The notes under the pieces were generated by a model, which saw only the letters and a list, made by a program, of their open reading frames with translations, did no database searches and was not told the DNA's origin. From NCBI RefSeq assembly GCF_014695975.1, contig NZ_JACJPI010000059.1, positions 1 through 64,000 of the forward strand: a stretch of 64,000 nt of DNA, given 5' to 3'. Of this stretch, positions 877-11,787 are shown piece by piece. The first letter of the stretch is position 1; each line of letters begins with the position of its first letter. The position numbers and the translations under genes were made by a program. This DNA comes from Leptolyngbya sp. FACHB-321. Lineage in GTDB: Bacteria > Cyanobacteriota > Cyanobacteriia > Leptolyngbyales > Leptolyngbyaceae.

Positions 877-959
877 ATGTCTTAGTGGGCATTTGGTGAA
901 TGTGCTGGTTTGGACGATCGCAACCAATCAATTTTTTAAGTGGTATCAGGAGCATGGGC

Positions 960-3900
960 ATGGTAGTTGACGTGAACAACAATTCTCACTTTGAAGCTTT
1001 GGAAGACGATTCATTGGAAGACGACGTTCTCATCTTTCCCATGTCGTTTGCTCAACAACGATTGTGGTTTTTGGATCAACTGATTCCTGATAGTGCGCTG
1101 TACAACTTGCCGTTGGTAGTACGGCTACAGGGAACGCTGGATGTCGCAGTGCTGGAAAAAAGCCTTGACGAGATTGTGCAGCGACACGAAAGCCTGCGAA
1201 CAACCTTTGCCACAGTCGATAGTGAACCTGTACAGGTCATTGCGTCGATCGTGCCCTGGCAGCTTCCAATGATTGAGTTACAGCACTTGTCGGAGGACGA
1301 TCGTCAAACAGAAGTACAACGCCTCGCCGCCGCAGACGCACAACAGCCATTCGACCTCAGTACTGGACCGTTGATGCGAACAACCCTGCTGCACCTGGCT
1401 TCCACCGAGCATGTGCTGTTGCTGACCATGCACCACATTGTTTCTGATCTGTGGTCGTTCAACGTGCTGTTTCAGGAATTGTCTGCCCTTTATGCGGCGT
1501 TTTCTCAAGGCAAACCCTCACCACTGCCAGAACTCTCGATTCAATACGCAGACTTTGCTCAATGGCAACGCGACTGGCTTCAGGGAGACGTGCAGAACAA
1601 GTTACTCAAGTACTGGACGCAACAGCTTGGCGGCAATTTGCCCATTCTGGAACTGCCGACCGATCGTCCTCGCCCCGCCATTCAAACCTTTCGGGGTGCA
1701 ACCCATTCCTTTGTGATTGGCGATCGCCCACTCGCTGCCTTAAAAATCGTGGCACAGCGGGAAGGGGCAACCCTGTTTATGACCCTTCTAGCAGCGTTCA
1801 AAACATTGCTGTATCGCTATACGGGACAAGACGATATTTTGGTCGGTTCACCCATTGCCAACCGCGATCGGGTTGAAATTGAAAATCTCATTGGCTTCTT
1901 TGTGAATACCCTTGTGCTTCGCACCAGTCTTGCGGGTAATCCCAGTTTTCAAACGCTGCTGAGGCGCATCCAGCAAGTCACCTTAAACGCCTATGACCAT
2001 CAGAGCTTGCCCTTCGAGCAATTAGTAGAAGCGCTGCATCCACAACGGAGTCTGAGCCAAAATCCGCTGTTTCAGGTGATGTTCGTCTTTCAAAATGTGT
2101 CGGTTTCAACCCTAACGTCTGATTTGACGCTCAGTTTTGACCCGATTGAAAGCCCTACATCCAAATTTGATTTGACCTTTGCTGTTGAGGAAGACGCCGA
2201 CACTCTCAACATTGAGATTGAGTACAGCACAGATTTATTTGATGCCGCGACAATCGATCGCATGGCAGGACATTTTCAAACCTTGATCGAAGGAATTATC
2301 GCCAATCCCAATCAATTGCTCTCTGAACTGCCCCTACTCACCCTTGCTGAACAACAACAGTTGCAAACCTGGAACCAAACCCAGGTGGATTATCCGCTCG
2401 ACATTTGTTTGCACCAGTGGGTCGAAGCCCAGGTCGAACGCACTCCAGATGCAATCGCCGTTAGCTTTGAAGGACAACAGCTTATTTACCAGGAATTGAA
2501 TCAACGGGCAAACCAACTCGCTCACTATCTACAAACTCTCGGTGTGCAACCCGATGTCCTCGTCGGCCTCTGCGTCGATCGCTCCCTGGAGATGGTCATC
2601 GGACTCCTCGCCATCCTCAAAGCCGGTGGAGCGTATGTCCCCTTCGACCCCAGCTACCCATCCGAGCGTCTGGCGTTCATGCTCGACGATGCTCAAGTGC
2701 CGCTTTTATTGACGCAAGCGCATCTAGTCGATCGGCTCCCGCCCCATCAAGCACAGATGCTTTGCCTCGACATCGATTGGCATCAACTGGCTCAAAGCTC
2801 AACTGAGAATCCCGAAAGTGGCGTGACGGCTGACCATCTTGCTTATGTTATCTACACCTCGGGTTCCACGGGCAAACCCAAAGGTGCGATGAACACCCAT
2901 CGGGGCATCTGCAACCGCTTGCTGTGGATGCAGGCGGAGTATCAGTTAACGGAGGGCGATCGCGTCCTGCAAAAAACGCCCTTCAGCTTTGATGTCTCGG
3001 TGTGGGAATTCTTCTGGACGCTGATGAGCGGTGCTTGCTTGGTTGTGGCGCGACCAGAGGGACACAAAGACCCTGCCTATCTGGTGCAATTGATTGCCGC
3101 ACAGCAAGTTACCACCCTCCACTTTGTTCCCTCCATGCTGCGGGTGTTTCTGGAAGAACCCAACATAGAAAGCTGCTACACCATCCGACAGGTGATGTGT
3201 AGTGGTGAAGCGCTGCCAGTGGACCTCCAAACCCGCTTCTTTGAGCGCTGCCACGCGCAGTTGCACAACCTGTATGGACCCACTGAAGCGGCTGTTGATG
3301 TCACTTTCTGGCACTGTCAACCCGAAGACCAGCAGCGCTCCGTGCCCATCGGCAGACCGATCGCTAACACTCAGATGCACATCTTGGATGCCCAGCTTCA
3401 ATCGGTGCCCATTGGCATTACGGGTGAACTCTACATCGGTGGCGTTAATGTTGCCAGAGGCTACCTCAACCGTCCTGCACTCACCGCAGAGCGCTTTCTT
3501 CCCGACCCCTTTGTAAGCAATTCCCCCACTCTCCACTTCCCACTCCCGACTCCCCACCTGTACAAAACTGGAGACCTTGCCCGCTATCGTCCCGATGGTG
3601 CCATTGACTATCTCGATCGCATCGACCATCAAGTGAAGTTGCGCGGCTTTCGCATTGAACTCGGTGAAATTGAAGCCGTCCTCGCACAACATCCCGATAT
3701 TCAAGAAGCGGTTGTTGTCGTTCAAGAATCCTTTGGAACCAAACGTCTGATTGCCTATCTAGTGACCACACTCCTACCCGATCGCATTCCGGTGCAACTG
3801 AAGTGTCTGGCAATTGTGAATGGGCTTCCCCCCGTCAGCGTGAACACAACAGATTTATCCTTTGATGGCACCTGTTTGATGGGCATTACGGCAGATGGAA

Positions 3901-5714
3901 AACCCGGTCACGCGGTTCAGTTACGACTTCAGCTACCCGGAACGACGGAGGAACAACAGTTAGAGGGAACGATCGTGTGGCAGCAAGGCAACCAAGCTGG
4001 AATTAAGTTCAATCTCACCCCAGATCAGCAATGCTTACTGCGACACAGTGTTGAATTCCTTTTTGAAGCTCAAGGTTTTCTCAAAACGCTACAGCGCCGT
4101 TTGAATCGCAACTTACGAGATTTCTTGAACCAAAAATTACCGGATTATATGGTGCCTGATCGCTTTGTGCTGCTGCGATCGATGCCGCTTAATGCCAACG
4201 GTAAAATAGACCGTCGTGCCCTGCCAACACCCGAATACGACCGCAGTGAGGCAGAAGTCGCGCTCGCGCCACCTCAAACCTTGATAGAGCAGCAGTTAGC
4301 CGCCCTCTGGAGCAAGCTTCTCGGCATTGAGCAGGTGAGCATTCAGGACAACTTCTTTGAGTCAGGGGGCAACTCCCTGCTAGCTGCTCAGTTGATTGCT
4401 GCGATTCGAGAAACCTTTCAGGTGAAGCTGCCTGTGCGGTGTATATTTGAGCAGCCGACGATCGCAGGATTAGCTCAACTGATTGAAACTGTCGATCGGA
4501 ACGGACTCGTATCCATTACACAGACGCTTACCTTGAAGTCTGAAGCCATCTTGCCTCCCGAGATTTCACCTAGCAGAGCGCAGGCATTTGAGATGGATCA
4601 GATCTCGCATCCCAAACACATTTTCCTTACAGGTGCAACAGGCTTTTTAGGCGCGTTTTTGCTAAAAGAGTTACTGCAACAGACTGAAGCTCATATCTAT
4701 TGTCTCGTTCGGGCTGCTGATAATTCTGAAGGGTTGAGCCGCTTACAAACCACGTTGGAGAAATACCAACTATGGCATCCAGCCTTCAATCATTCTCGCA
4801 TCGTTCCCATTTCAGGAGATCTTGCCCAGCCATTACTCGGTCTTGCGCCTCAAGAGTTTGCTCGATTAGCAGCCCAGATCGATACGATTTATCACAATGG
4901 CGCAGATGTCAATTTCTTTAAGTCCTACCAACAGCTCAAAGCAGCGAACGTGTTAGGAACTCAAGAAGTTCTCAGGCTAGCCTGCCAAACTAAAGTTAAA
5001 CCAGTTCATCACATTTCTACCATTTCAATTTTTGGCAGTACTTACAGTGACGCAACCATTATTCGAGAAGATGAACTGATCGACGGTCATGAAAGCCATC
5101 TCGATCTGGGCTATTCTCAAAGTAAGTGGGTTGCCGAAAAGCTGGTGTGGATGGCTCAATCAAGAGGGTTGCCTGTAACGGTGTTTCGAGCAGGCGCGAT
5201 CGCAGGATCAAGCCAAACCGCAGTCAGCAACAGCAAAGATTTTGAATTCAGTTTCATTCGGGGCTGTATTCAGATGGGAGTGTTCCCTGATTTGGGCACT
5301 GAACAACAGTCATTTGTGCCTGTCGATTATGTCAGTCAGGTGATCGTTCATTTGTCCAAACAGCCGCAGTTACTCAAAAAAGCCTTCCACCTGGTACATC
5401 CCTGCCCCATTCGTAAAGTAGAGTTCTTTGAACAAATCCAGGCAGATGGCTATCCCCTCAAAAAGCTTCCATATACTCAATGGCGAGAAACCCTTTTGCA
5501 GCAAGAACAAACCTCGCAAGACAACGCCCTTATCCCGTTCTTACCTCTGTACAAAGAGGAAAGTGACCAGGATCGCTCTACCTTGTCAATCTCTGATCAT
5601 AGTGATCCAACGTTTGATTGCCAAAACACCTTAAACGGTTTAGCCAAGACAACTATTAACTGTTTGCCCATCAGCCAGCTTTTAAAGATATATCTGCCTA
5701 CCGTAACGACTTAG
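960..5714 (+). CDS. NRPS terminal module C-A(PilZ-like insert)-PCP-reductase
   Basis: A 1,584-residue NRPS module. ATG 960 is chosen over ATG 900 or 954 because AGGAG lies seven bases upstream. Condensation domain: SFAQQRLWFLDQL near residue 30 and HHIVSDLWS with H158/H159/D163. Adenylation domain: YTSGSTGKPKG near 630, FDVSVWEFF, NLYGPTE near 773, A8 near 900, A9-A10 near 1055-1080. Manual alignment to GrsA gives the pocket code D-V-W-H-M-S-L-V-D-K, close to the known serine codes. Carrier serine is S1139. The C-terminal reductase has GATGFLG (G1225) and YSQSK (Y1385, K1389), so the product should leave by NAD(P)H reduction as an aldehyde or alcohol rather than by a thioesterase. A PilZ-like block lies at residues about 938-1035. 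It is probably cotranscribed with the NRPS upstream. Confidence 0.96.
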   Translation: MVVDVNNNSHFEALEDDSLEDDVLIFPMSFAQQRLWFLDQLIPDSALYNLPLVVRLQGTLDVAVLEKSLDEIVQRHESLRTTFATVDSEPVQVIASIVPWQLPMIELQHLSEDDRQTEVQRLAAADAQQPFDLSTGPLMRTTLLHLASTEHVLLLTMHHIVSDLWSFNVLFQELSALYAAFSQGKPSPLPELSIQYADFAQWQRDWLQGDVQNKLLKYWTQQLGGNLPILELPTDRPRPAIQTFRGATHSFVIGDRPLAALKIVAQREGATLFMTLLAAFKTLLYRYTGQDDILVGSPIANRDRVEIENLIGFFVNTLVLRTSLAGNPSFQTLLRRIQQVTLNAYDHQSLPFEQLVEALHPQRSLSQNPLFQVMFVFQNVSVSTLTSDLTLSFDPIESPTSKFDLTFAVEEDADTLNIEIEYSTDLFDAATIDRMAGHFQTLIEGIIANPNQLLSELPLLTLAEQQQLQTWNQTQVDYPLDICLHQWVEAQVERTPDAIAVSFEGQQLIYQELNQRANQLAHYLQTLGVQPDVLVGLCVDRSLEMVIGLLAILKAGGAYVPFDPSYPSERLAFMLDDAQVPLLLTQAHLVDRLPPHQAQMLCLDIDWHQLAQSSTENPESGVTADHLAYVIYTSGSTGKPKGAMNTHRGICNRLLWMQAEYQLTEGDRVLQKTPFSFDVSVWEFFWTLMSGACLVVARPEGHKDPAYLVQLIAAQQVTTLHFVPSMLRVFLEEPNIESCYTIRQVMCSGEALPVDLQTRFFERCHAQLHNLYGPTEAAVDVTFWHCQPEDQQRSVPIGRPIANTQMHILDAQLQSVPIGITGELYIGGVNVARGYLNRPALTAERFLPDPFVSNSPTLHFPLPTPHLYKTGDLARYRPDGAIDYLDRIDHQVKLRGFRIELGEIEAVLAQHPDIQEAVVVVQESFGTKRLIAYLVTTLLPDRIPVQLKCLAIVNGLPPVSVNTTDLSFDGTCLMGITADGKPGHAVQLRLQLPGTTEEQQLEGTIVWQQGNQAGIKFNLTPDQQCLLRHSVEFLFEAQGFLKTLQRRLNRNLRDFLNQKLPDYMVPDRFVLLRSMPLNANGKIDRRALPTPEYDRSEAEVALAPPQTLIEQQLAALWSKLLGIEQVSIQDNFFESGGNSLLAAQLIAAIRETFQVKLPVRCIFEQPTIAGLAQLIETVDRNGLVSITQTLTLKSEAILPPEISPSRAQAFEMDQISHPKHIFLTGATGFLGAFLLKELLQQTEAHIYCLVRAADNSEGLSRLQTTLEKYQLWHPAFNHSRIVPISGDLAQPLLGLAPQEFARLAAQIDTIYHNGADVNFFKSYQQLKAANVLGTQEVLRLACQTKVKPVHHISTISIFGSTYSDATIIREDELIDGHESHLDLGYSQSKWVAEKLVWMAQSRGLPVTVFRAGAIAGSSQTAVSNSKDFEFSFIRGCIQMGVFPDLGTEQQSFVPVDYVSQVIVHLSKQPQLLKKAFHLVHPCPIRKVEFFEQIQADGYPLKKLPYTQWRETLLQQEQTSQDNALIPFLPLYKEESDQDRSTLSISDHSDPTFDCQNTLNGLAKTTINCLPISQLLKIYLPTVTT
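3523..3558 (+). repeat. heptamer repeat inside second NRPS A domain
   Basis: Second copy of the CCCCACT-like run, at the equivalent place in the A domain and in frame. It differs in detail from the copy at 141-178, while DNA on both sides is almost identical between the two genes (1-119 versus 3390-3508, and 181-311 versus 3561-3691). This suggests gene conversion or a recent module duplication. Confidence 0.6.
3771..4065 (+). other. PilZ-like domain inserted between A8 and A9 of the NRPS
   Basis: About 98 residues separate the normal A-domain text ending IAYLVT from LRDFLNQKLPDYMVP. The block reads like a PilZ beta-barrel: DRIPVQLKC (R942), then DLSFDG, which fits the (D/N)xSxxG cyclic-di-GMP motif (D965, S967, G970), then PGHAVQLRLQLPG, EGTIVWQ and AGIKFN, matching the usual PilZ strand order. 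The first arginine of RxxxR is absent (a Leu stands there). Binding could therefore be weak or lost. The insertion point is the same one used by N-methyltransferase domains in other NRPSs. The domain call is from motif and strand pattern only. Confidence 0.65.
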
Positions 5715-8484: not shown

Positions 8485-11400
8485 ATGTGTTCCCGTACCG
8501 TTAACGTGCTTTTAGTTGAGGATGATGAAGAGGACTACCTCATCACCCGCAGTTTGCTCTCTCAAATCAAGCCGGTAACGTTTGCTCTCGATTGGGTAGC
8601 CACCTATGAAGCGGCTTTGGAGAGCATTGCCAACCATCAACATGATGTTTATCTAGTGGACTACCGTCTGGGACCGCATGACGGGTTAGAATTCTTGCAA
8701 GCCGCTCTGGCAAATGGTTGCAGAGCGCCAATCATTCTCTTGACTGGGCAGTCGAATGAAGACATCGATTTGGCGGCGATGAAGGCAGGCGCGGCAGACT
8801 ATTTGGTGAAAGGTCAGATTGATGCTTCACTCCTAGAACGATCGATTCGTTATGCGATTGAACGCAACCGCACCTTAGAAGCGTTGCACAAGAGTGAAGC
8901 ACAACTGGATGGCATTTTAGGATCGCTTAAAGACGTGGTCTGGTCTGCGACTGCGCCTAACTTTGAGATGCTCTATATGAGCACTGCGGTGCATACCCTT
9001 TATGGGCGATCGTCCGGTGAATTTGCGGCTAATCCCAACCTCTGGTTTGAAGTGGTGCATCCCGACGATCGCCCTTGGGTCGAGCACGAATCGCAAGCGC
9101 TCTTACACAGCGGTTCTAAAGATCTGGAATATCGCATCCTACAGCCTGATGGCACGCTTCGTTGGGTGCGCGATCGCGCTTATCTAGTCTGCGATGCCGG
9201 TTGGAAGACAACGCGCATCAATGGCATCATCACGGACATCACTGAGAGAAAACAGGCAGAGGTCGCCCTAAAGCAGGCTATGCATAAAAACAGTCAGCTT
9301 GCGGCGGCAATCTCTCACATTGGCACAGGTGTGACGCTGAGTGATCCAACGTTACCCGACAACCCGGTCATCTTTGTGAACCCTGGCTTTACAGCCATCA
9401 CGGGTTATACAGCCGAAGTAGCCCTGGGAAAAAACTGTCGCTTTCTACAAGGTCCAGAGACAGACCCCAGCACGACCAATAAACTACGACAGGCGATCGC
9501 CCAACGCCAGTCCTTTACAGGCACGCTGCTCAACTATCGTCAGGATGGCACTCCGTTTTGGAACGAGTTGACGCTTAACCCAGTCTTTGGTGACGACGGC
9601 ACGCTGATTAACTTTGTGGGTTTGCAAACGGATGTCACTGCCCGCAAACAGGCTGAAGCAGCCCTTGAGCGCCTGCGCCGCCAGAACGAGCTAGTCTTAA
9701 ACTCGGCTGGAGAAGGCATTTATGGTCTGGATTTAGAGGGAAAGCTCACCTTTATTAACCCGGTCGCCGCCCAAATGCTGGGTTGGGACGCTGACGCACT
9801 GATTGGCAAACTTATCCCTGGTTTTGTGCATTCGTCGCAGCCGAAGGGAACGCTGCACTGGCAACCAGGTTCGATCGATTCAGCCGCTGACCAATGTTTC
9901 CTCCATCACGTTAGAGAGGAGGTGTTCTGGCGCAAGGATGGCTCCAGCTTTTTGGTGGAATACATCAGCACACCAATTCTAGAGCATGGGACGTTAATTG
10001 GAACGGTCGTGACCTTTCAGGACATTACGTATCGGCGACAGGCAGAAGCGGCGCTGCGGGAGAGCGAGGAGCGCTATGCCATTGCGGTGCAAGGTGCCAA
10101 AGATGGACTGTGGGATTGGAACTTGAAAACCAATCAGGTATATTTTTCGCCCCGATGGAAGTCAATGTTGGGCTGCGAAGAAGACCAAATCGGCAGTAGT
10201 CTAGATGACTGGTTTAACCGGATTCATCCAGAAGATTTTGAGCACGTGCAAGCGGCGTTGCTGGCTCACTTCGCGACTCAGACACCTGACTTTGAAAGTG
10301 AGCACCGGATGCTGCACCAGGATGATACTTACCGATGGGTACTCTGTCGTGGGTTAGCAGTGCACGACGACGATGGTAAAGCAGTGCGAATTGCAGGTTC
10401 CTTGACGGATATCACCAGCCGTAAGCGGACCGAAAAGCAACTACTGCATGATGCACTGCATGATGCACTAACTGACCTAGCAAACCGCGCCCTGTTTATG
10501 GATCGATTAGAACGGGCGATCGAACGGGGCAAACGCCATGAGCAGTACTTGTTCGCCGTCCTTTTTCTGGATCTAGATCGCTTCAAGCGGGTGAACGACA
10601 GCCTGGGTCACGTGATTGGTAATCAGCTTTTGATTGCGATCGCGCGGCGGCTACAACTCTGTGTGCGGTTAGAAGACACGGTAGCCCGTTTGGGCGGCGA
10701 CGAGTTTGTTATTTTGCTAGAGGGCATTGAGAGTGCGAGTGATGCGACACGGGTAGCAGAGCGTATTCAAATGGAACTGGCACAACCGTTTCACTTAAGT
10801 GGGCACGAAATGTTTGCCACTACCAGCATTGGCATTGCACTAAGTGCAACAGGTTATAAGCAACCAGAAGAGATTTTGCGTGATGCCGATGTTGCAATGT
10901 ATCGTGCCAAAGCATTGGGCAAGTCTCGCTATGAAATGTTTGATACAAGTATGCACGCGCAAGCAGTCGCACTCCTGCAACTTGAGACTGACCTCCGCCA
11001 CGCGATCGAACGCCAGGAGTTTGAACTGCACTACCAACCGATCGTCTCGCTTAAAAACAAACAGTTGGTTGGGTTTGAGGCACTAGTGCGCTGGCGGCAT
11101 CCGCAACGAGGACTGGTTTCGCCAGGAGAGTTTATTCCAGCCGCAGAAGATACTGGTTTGATCGTGCCCCTTGGGTGGTGGGTTTTACAAGAAGCCTGTC
11201 GTCAAATGCAGGTTTGGCAGCAGCAGTTTGCGGTCAAACGTTCTCTTAGTATGAGTGTGAACTTGTCTGGTAAGCAATTGACGCAACCAGATGCGGTGGA
11301 GCGCGTCAAGCAAAGCTTGCAGACAACCGGTCTTCATCCCAGCAGCTTAAAGCTGGAACTGACGGAAAGTTCCCTGATGGAGCATGCCGAATCGACAATC

Positions 11401-11787
11401 ACCATGCTGCAACAGCTTAAAACCTTGGGCGTTCAGCTAGCGATCGATGATTTTGGGACGGGTTATTCCTCCCTCAGTTACCTCTATCGGTTTCCTGTAG
11501 ACACCCTCAAAATTGATCGATCGTTTATCAACAAAATGGATGTTGAGCTGGAGAAGCTAGAACTGGTGCGAACCATTGCCACCCTTTCCTGGAATTTAAG
11601 TATGGATGTCGTCGCCGAAGGCATCGAAACCCAGCAACAACTCTCACATCTCAAAGCCTTGGGCTGTGAGTACGGTCAAGGCTATCTCTTTTCTAGACCT
11701 GTCGATGCGATCGCCACAGAAAAGCTCATTGCAGAACACGCCCAGCGCGAGCAACACGAAGCGATGAAAGCGTGCAAATTTGCTTAA
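8485..11787 (+). CDS. REC-PAS-LOV-PAS-PAS-GGDEF-EAL cyclic-di-GMP enzyme
   Basis: A 1,100-residue cytoplasmic signalling protein. Residues 5-130 are a receiver domain with phospho-acceptor D59. A PAS domain follows (about 140-260). Residues about 265-390 look like a LOV domain: GKNCRFLQGPETDP with the candidate flavin cysteine C318, then NYRQDGTPFWNEL and FVGLQTDVT. Two more PAS units precede a diguanylate cyclase domain with intact GGDEF (737-741) and an RxxD inhibitory site (R728-D731) five residues before it. The EAL phosphodiesterase domain is intact too (E865-L867, DDFGTGYSS, AEGIET). Both synthesis and breakdown of cyclic-di-GMP are therefore possible, perhaps switched by blue light and phosphorylation. 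The kinase/regulator pair downstream is on the same strand. Confidence 0.95.
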   Translation: MCSRTVNVLLVEDDEEDYLITRSLLSQIKPVTFALDWVATYEAALESIANHQHDVYLVDYRLGPHDGLEFLQAALANGCRAPIILLTGQSNEDIDLAAMKAGAADYLVKGQIDASLLERSIRYAIERNRTLEALHKSEAQLDGILGSLKDVVWSATAPNFEMLYMSTAVHTLYGRSSGEFAANPNLWFEVVHPDDRPWVEHESQALLHSGSKDLEYRILQPDGTLRWVRDRAYLVCDAGWKTTRINGIITDITERKQAEVALKQAMHKNSQLAAAISHIGTGVTLSDPTLPDNPVIFVNPGFTAITGYTAEVALGKNCRFLQGPETDPSTTNKLRQAIAQRQSFTGTLLNYRQDGTPFWNELTLNPVFGDDGTLINFVGLQTDVTARKQAEAALERLRRQNELVLNSAGEGIYGLDLEGKLTFINPVAAQMLGWDADALIGKLIPGFVHSSQPKGTLHWQPGSIDSAADQCFLHHVREEVFWRKDGSSFLVEYISTPILEHGTLIGTVVTFQDITYRRQAEAALRESEERYAIAVQGAKDGLWDWNLKTNQVYFSPRWKSMLGCEEDQIGSSLDDWFNRIHPEDFEHVQAALLAHFATQTPDFESEHRMLHQDDTYRWVLCRGLAVHDDDGKAVRIAGSLTDITSRKRTEKQLLHDALHDALTDLANRALFMDRLERAIERGKRHEQYLFAVLFLDLDRFKRVNDSLGHVIGNQLLIAIARRLQLCVRLEDTVARLGGDEFVILLEGIESASDATRVAERIQMELAQPFHLSGHEMFATTSIGIALSATGYKQPEEILRDADVAMYRAKALGKSRYEMFDTSMHAQAVALLQLETDLRHAIERQEFELHYQPIVSLKNKQLVGFEALVRWRHPQRGLVSPGEFIPAAEDTGLIVPLGWWVLQEACRQMQVWQQQFAVKRSLSMSVNLSGKQLTQPDAVERVKQSLQTTGLHPSSLKLELTESSLMEHAESTITMLQQLKTLGVQLAIDDFGTGYSSLSYLYRFPVDTLKIDRSFINKMDVELEKLELVRTIATLSWNLSMDVVAEGIETQQQLSHLKALGCEYGQGYLFSRPVDAIATEKLIAEHAQREQHEAMKACKFA

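Follow-up and report, generated by a model that had tools for sequence, protein, structure and literature searches.

The NRPS gene near the start of the analysed window, a stretch of 64,000 nucleotides from Leptolyngbya sp. FACHB-321, encodes an adenylation (A) domain interrupted by an insert that, by profile and modelled fold, is a PilZ domain. PilZ is the classic receptor domain for cyclic-di-GMP. PilZ inserts in A domains form a widespread cyanobacterial family, in some members of which canonical cyclic-di-GMP motifs lie within an A domain; the copy in the window is a half-site form by its residues, with (D/N)xSxxG present and the canonical RxxxR absent. The insert may point to direct switching of peptide assembly by a cell signal in many cyanobacteria.

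The gene (positions 900-5714) encodes a protein of 1604 amino acids with the organization C-A(PilZ)-T-thioester reductase, as assigned with Pfam and NCBIfam domains. The condensation domain (1035-2363; PF00668, residues 46-488) is followed by the adenylation core (2424-3467; PF00501, residues 509-856), the A8 motif DHQVKLRGFRIELGEIE forming the hinge to A_sub (3624-3674), the PilZ insert (TTLLPDRIP...GFLKTLQR, ~3765-4097), the A9 motif LPDYMVP (4137-4157), the A10 motif NGKIDR including the catalytic Lys (4197-4214), the carrier (thiolation) domain (4290-4484; PF00550, residues 1131-1195), and the terminal thioester reductase (4617-5678; TIGR01746, residues 1240-1593), all on the plus strand. 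The specificity residues of the core, D-V-W-H-M-S-L-V-D, which we take to be serine-like, were read by eye against the known PheA motif positions. The combination of this code with a terminal reductase suggests that the module releases a peptide aldehyde or alcohol with a terminal serine. Upstream, on the same strand (1-876), lies the C-terminal end of a preceding NRPS, an A_sub without PilZ and then T. This protein begins on contig C62 of the FACHB-321 genome (G000), and its module 2 there carries a further PilZ insert (G000:C62:2209-2553, minus strand).

The first-pass annotation had described the insert as PilZ-like and proposed a Pfam and structure-prediction check, which bore out this identity. 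The PF07238 profile matched the whole protein with 29.6 bits (residues 962-1048, window 3783-4043) and the insert alone with 35.2 bits (E 1.6e-8), against a cut-off of 22.5. The AF2 single-sequence model of the insert places six strands ahead of a long helix, as in PilZ, at a low mean pLDDT of only ~59. In a Foldseek search of this model against the PDB, PilZ domains or PilZ-bearing proteins made up the first 29 matches ahead of any unrelated one, down to rank 30, with the exception of a functionally uncharacterized Legionella protein at rank 20; Alg44, CeSA and MapZ were among the cyclic-di-GMP binders heading the list. When PDB sequences were searched, phmmer with the insert alone gave no match, and the family profile gave PilZ and BcsA matches that were weak only. 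The Pfam and NCBIfam profiles matching the insert were exclusively PilZ or PilZ-type, with no enzyme family among them.

The placement between A8 and A9 proved correct as well. The A3, A5, A7, A9 and A10 motifs of the window A domain are intact, A8 and A9 flank the insert, and their spacing is ~159 residues with PilZ versus ~55 in ordinary neighbouring A domains, which amounts to ~104 extra residues in the window. The AMP-binding_C domain is split by PilZ, its best match covering only residues 923-956, before the insert. The interval first given for the insert, 3771-4065, was right in place and slightly short at both ends. The proposed parallel with methyltransferase inserts also held, as, within the same proteins, sibling modules have methyltransferases in the identical slot, with ~470 residues between A8 and A9. 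In a 3055-residue NRPS of Calothrix sp. NIES-4105 (L131, G1041), which has a PilZ insert, an FkbM-type methyltransferase (PF05050, residues 1053-1242) fills the A8-A9 slot in a different module. In the inspected clusters, all matches to the insert profile were located between A8 and A9.

The insert had initially been treated as a single case. The two copies in the FACHB-321 genome are 48% identical, and a profile of both identified two inserts in G029 (same family) and 10 genomes in a draw from the phylum. A broader profile added more carriers, including Calothrix sp. NIES-4105, Oscillatoria sp. PCC 10802 and Oscillatoria princeps RMCB-10. The same insert occurs in 45 of 342 genomes of one order (30 of 196 in an overlapping draw) and, after the addition of G000, G029, G094, G442, G450 and G535, in at least 51 cyanobacterial species, a few of which may hold only a free-standing or fragmentary copy. 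No copy was found in plasmid records, nor in 398, 109 and 104 genomes sampled, without a positive control, from the three phyla to which a Pseudomonas, a Cohnella and a Pirellulaceae belong. A profile scan of the named genomes' contigs recovered A domains that all lacked a PilZ barrel; three of these genomes have the insert elsewhere.

In the window copy, DLSFDG (3852-3869) is the (D/N)xSxxG motif, as the first-pass annotation had it, and the absence of the first RxxxR Arg was also read correctly: the second Arg is R962 (3783-3785), and four residues earlier stands L958 (3771-3773). A motif census of 86 distinct PilZ copies covered 71 junctional copies, which abut the A domain, and 15 distal tandem copies. 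The first Arg is present in none of the 71 junctional copies, the second Arg in 69, and (D/N)xSxxG in 66. In an alignment of 17 sequences, which left out the degenerate copy G372b (DxSxxG lost; counted in the census), the invariant columns were the second Arg of RxxxR, the D, S and G of DxSxxG, and L, P, G, W and G. Thirteen inserts have a second PilZ domain directly behind the first, and two of these also have a third. Three successive PilZ domains within one A domain are seen in L195 (G1399:C367) and L197 (G1412:C1010). RxxxR is present in 11 of the 15 distal copies versus no first Arg in any junctional copy (Fisher 6e-11, for counts of related sequences), and (D/N)xSxxG is kept in 13 of the 15. 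The distal copy of O. princeps, with RAHTR and NISAGG, has complete motifs. The extent of the Pfam PilZ match varies accordingly with the type of domain: in single-type inserts the match starts only at position ~5-7, in most cellulose-synthase-type PilZ domains from these genomes it starts at position 1, and in the O. princeps second copy it extends from position 2 through the last position. For the idea that cyclic-di-GMP tunes peptide synthesis directly, the missing first Arg weakens the case of the window copy, whereas the distal PilZ domains with full motifs strengthen that of the family.

We propose that the PilZ insert, built into the mobile A_sub of the adenylation domain between A8 and A9, would act as a regulatory input. 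A_sub rotates by ~140 degrees during the cycle (PMC8097286). The C-terminal helix of the insert is predicted to run into the A_sub helix preceding A9: in a model that used 21 uninterrupted A domains as alignment, one 39-residue helix (545-583) spans the end of PilZ and the A_sub helix before A9, with the barrel modelled at low confidence in the A-domain context (pLDDT ~50-68). Binding of a ligand or partner could bias the rotation of A_sub between adenylation and thiolation, and biased rotation would in turn gate amino-acid loading. The ligand would most likely be cyclic-di-GMP in tandem members, while in single members, such as that of the window, the half-site may be weakened or used via a partner, canonical tight binding not being expected from a half-site. 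We judge this gating of A_sub, with the two modes just described, to be evenly poised between right and wrong. The claim that cyclic-di-GMP exerts direct allosteric control over cyanobacterial NRPSs via the A_sub PilZ, in canonical form in tandems and in modified form in singles, appears somewhat less probable.

Alternatively, the single PilZ domain of the window might itself bind cyclic-di-GMP, through R962, D985/S987 and a substitute first Arg, and control the module. The absence of the first Arg from all junctional copies speaks against this, and the D, S and G may be retained for the fold; moreover, the R17A substitution of Alg44, in which the first Arg is lost, abolishes binding (PMC12564702), a point against tight binding of the canonical type by single inserts. 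At the same time, the second Arg and DxSxxG are nearly invariant in 71 divergent junctional copies, while D and S should have become less constrained if binding had been lost, and PixB of Myxococcus xanthus binds although the second motif has no Ser in its PilZ domains (PMC8316039), which leaves room for binding by single inserts. We consider direct binding by the single domain unlikely.

Compared with nine standalone PilZ domains from the genomes that carry them, the inserts form one clade (support 100/99), but the insert state changes at least 8 times on the adenylation-core tree, and the window core is nearest to the matching module of G450 and to one G450 module without PilZ. The simplest reading that we infer is a single PilZ lineage on a conserved A_sub, on which the cores were exchanged; core exchange has been described for NRPS evolution in general (PMC8097286). 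In a tree with the standalone PilZ outgroup, the distal copies are outermost, and the single inserts stand beside the Arg-less first copies of tandems (SH-aLRT 81-97, a moderate support obtained from few alignment columns). From this branching, a tandem ancestor can fairly be inferred, with the distal sensor later lost from the single lineages. In O. princeps RMCB-10 (L008 8001-8324), an A domain without a barrel retains the C-terminal PilZ helix between A8 and A9, YLLDTQEKWKTLQRTLSGSLRDSLKQKLPDYM, which is near-identical to the last part of the complete insert of Oscillatoria PCC 10802 and is likely a scar of PilZ loss.

Between G000 and G450, dN/dS is 0.079 and 0.078 for the two inserts, and 0.078 and 0.070 for the adenylation cores. 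The possibility that the insert is a structural relic, raised by the first-pass annotation, is ruled out by this purifying selection (dN/dS ~0.08), equal to that on the catalytic core, and by conservation across many species. Rearranged forms were also observed. A free-standing frame of ~350 residues with A_sub and two PilZ domains, without core or carrier, is present in L201 (G1243:C109) and L202 (G1258:C120); with its A10 Lys altered (HGRVD) and a dN/dS of ~0.14 from two species, it looks like an NRPS piece that has become a separate sensor-type protein. In L065 (G169:C1:750648-758123), L141, L142 and L143, an A(PilZ)-truncated carrier is in frame with a second A_sub(PilZ)-carrier lacking its own core, a fusion that is unlikely to be an assembly error because the spacing is identical in four genomes.

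A degenerate, ligand-free PilZ domain could instead serve as a structural spacer or contact surface setting the A_sub/T geometry. This would agree with the missing first Arg, with the A_sub-T interface being the conserved part in NRPS recombination (PMC8097286), and with the survival of the A_sub-joining helix alone in the O. princeps module, but the ligand-motif residues are conserved equally to the core fold positions, most distal copies have the canonical motif, and neighbouring modules do without the insert. We rate a spacer as slightly less likely still than direct binding by the single domain.

The layout A-T-C-A(PilZ)-T-C-A-T, then C-A(PilZ)-T-reductase, is shared by G000, G029 and G450, and in all three the reductase NRPS is followed by an ABC-2 exporter pair and a Ser/Thr kinase-AAA-GAF-histidine kinase protein. 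The G000 cluster is split across contigs C62 and C55, inside a near-repeat of modules 3 and 4 (89-92% identical); an assembly artefact was ruled out by the identical layout in the intact clusters of G029 and G450. Homologues of the kinase protein (~50-74% identity, some fragmentary) are located beside most of the compared PilZ-NRPS clusters, and the protein is a candidate cluster regulator; its gene lies at L054 3971-9451 in G029 and at L053 9338-12000 in the FACHB-321 genome. The window also contains, near the NRPS, a Receiver-PAS-GGDEF-EAL gene (8485-11787), then a histidine kinase and a receiver. Among the clusters compared, only G392 has a neighbour similar to this gene, and its link to the insert was rejected for lack of conservation; a cyclic-di-GMP enzyme consistently beside the clusters was not found, GGDEF genes being near only 2 of those examined. 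A cytochrome P450 gene (6212-7567, minus strand) is convergent with the NRPS gene; no homologue was found in the other clusters compared, and an association with the insert was rejected on this ground. A tie of the insert to one substrate was rejected because the cores differ at specificity positions. That the insert is a docking site for an in-trans tailoring or carrier partner, such as this P450, without a nucleotide signal, is highly improbable: PilZ proteins without RxxxR do act via partners (Xanthomonas PilZ-FimX and PilZ-PilB complex structures) and the P450 adjoins the window NRPS, but the P450 is absent from the other compared clusters and the cores of PilZ-bearing modules vary at specificity positions.

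Control of NRPS output is thought to operate mainly through transcription and substrate supply. If the proposed gating of A_sub is correct, a second-messenger receptor in the loading enzyme would constitute a post-translational switch on peptide assembly, and a specific question, whether A_sub-dependent loading is altered by cyclic-di-GMP, becomes testable. The PilZ insert would also offer a ready-made pattern for the engineering of ligand-controlled NRPSs, and it adds a sensor-type domain to the enzymes so far known to fill the A8-A9 slot. The A-domain inserts covered by two reviews include methyltransferase, ketoreductase, oxidase and monooxygenase domains, with PilZ in neither (PMC11355689, PMC8097286). 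A full-text literature search with PilZ and NRPS terms returned no relevant description; its coverage of the interrupted-A-domain literature was incomplete, and priority is not firm.

The closest architectural counterparts are the interrupted A domains (A-M-A, A-Ox-A and A-KR-A, as in TioS, KtzH and McyA), which likewise accommodate a whole domain between A8 and A9 with the A motifs kept (PMC11355689; PMC8097286). Their known inserts are catalytic tailoring enzymes, whereas that of the window is a non-enzymatic domain of ligand-sensor type, of ~104 residues. As in BcsA/CesA and Alg44, a PilZ domain with a six-strand barrel, a helix and the RxxxR...(D/N)xSxxG region is placed within or beside a biosynthetic machine; those, however, are polysaccharide machines with a terminal PilZ, while the insert lies within an NRPS catalytic domain and its junctional copies are missing the first Arg. 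An incomplete ligand motif is also known from the PilZ proteins XC1028 and XAC1133, which are without RxxxR and to which the insert-family profile has a weak sequence match. These two have lost (D/N)xSxxG as well, unlike the inserts, which retain it. Finally, PixB of M. xanthus likewise combines two PilZ domains and an enzyme domain in one protein (PMC8316039), but it differs from the NRPS inserts in having RxxxR in both PilZ domains and a GNAT acetyltransferase as the enzyme domain.
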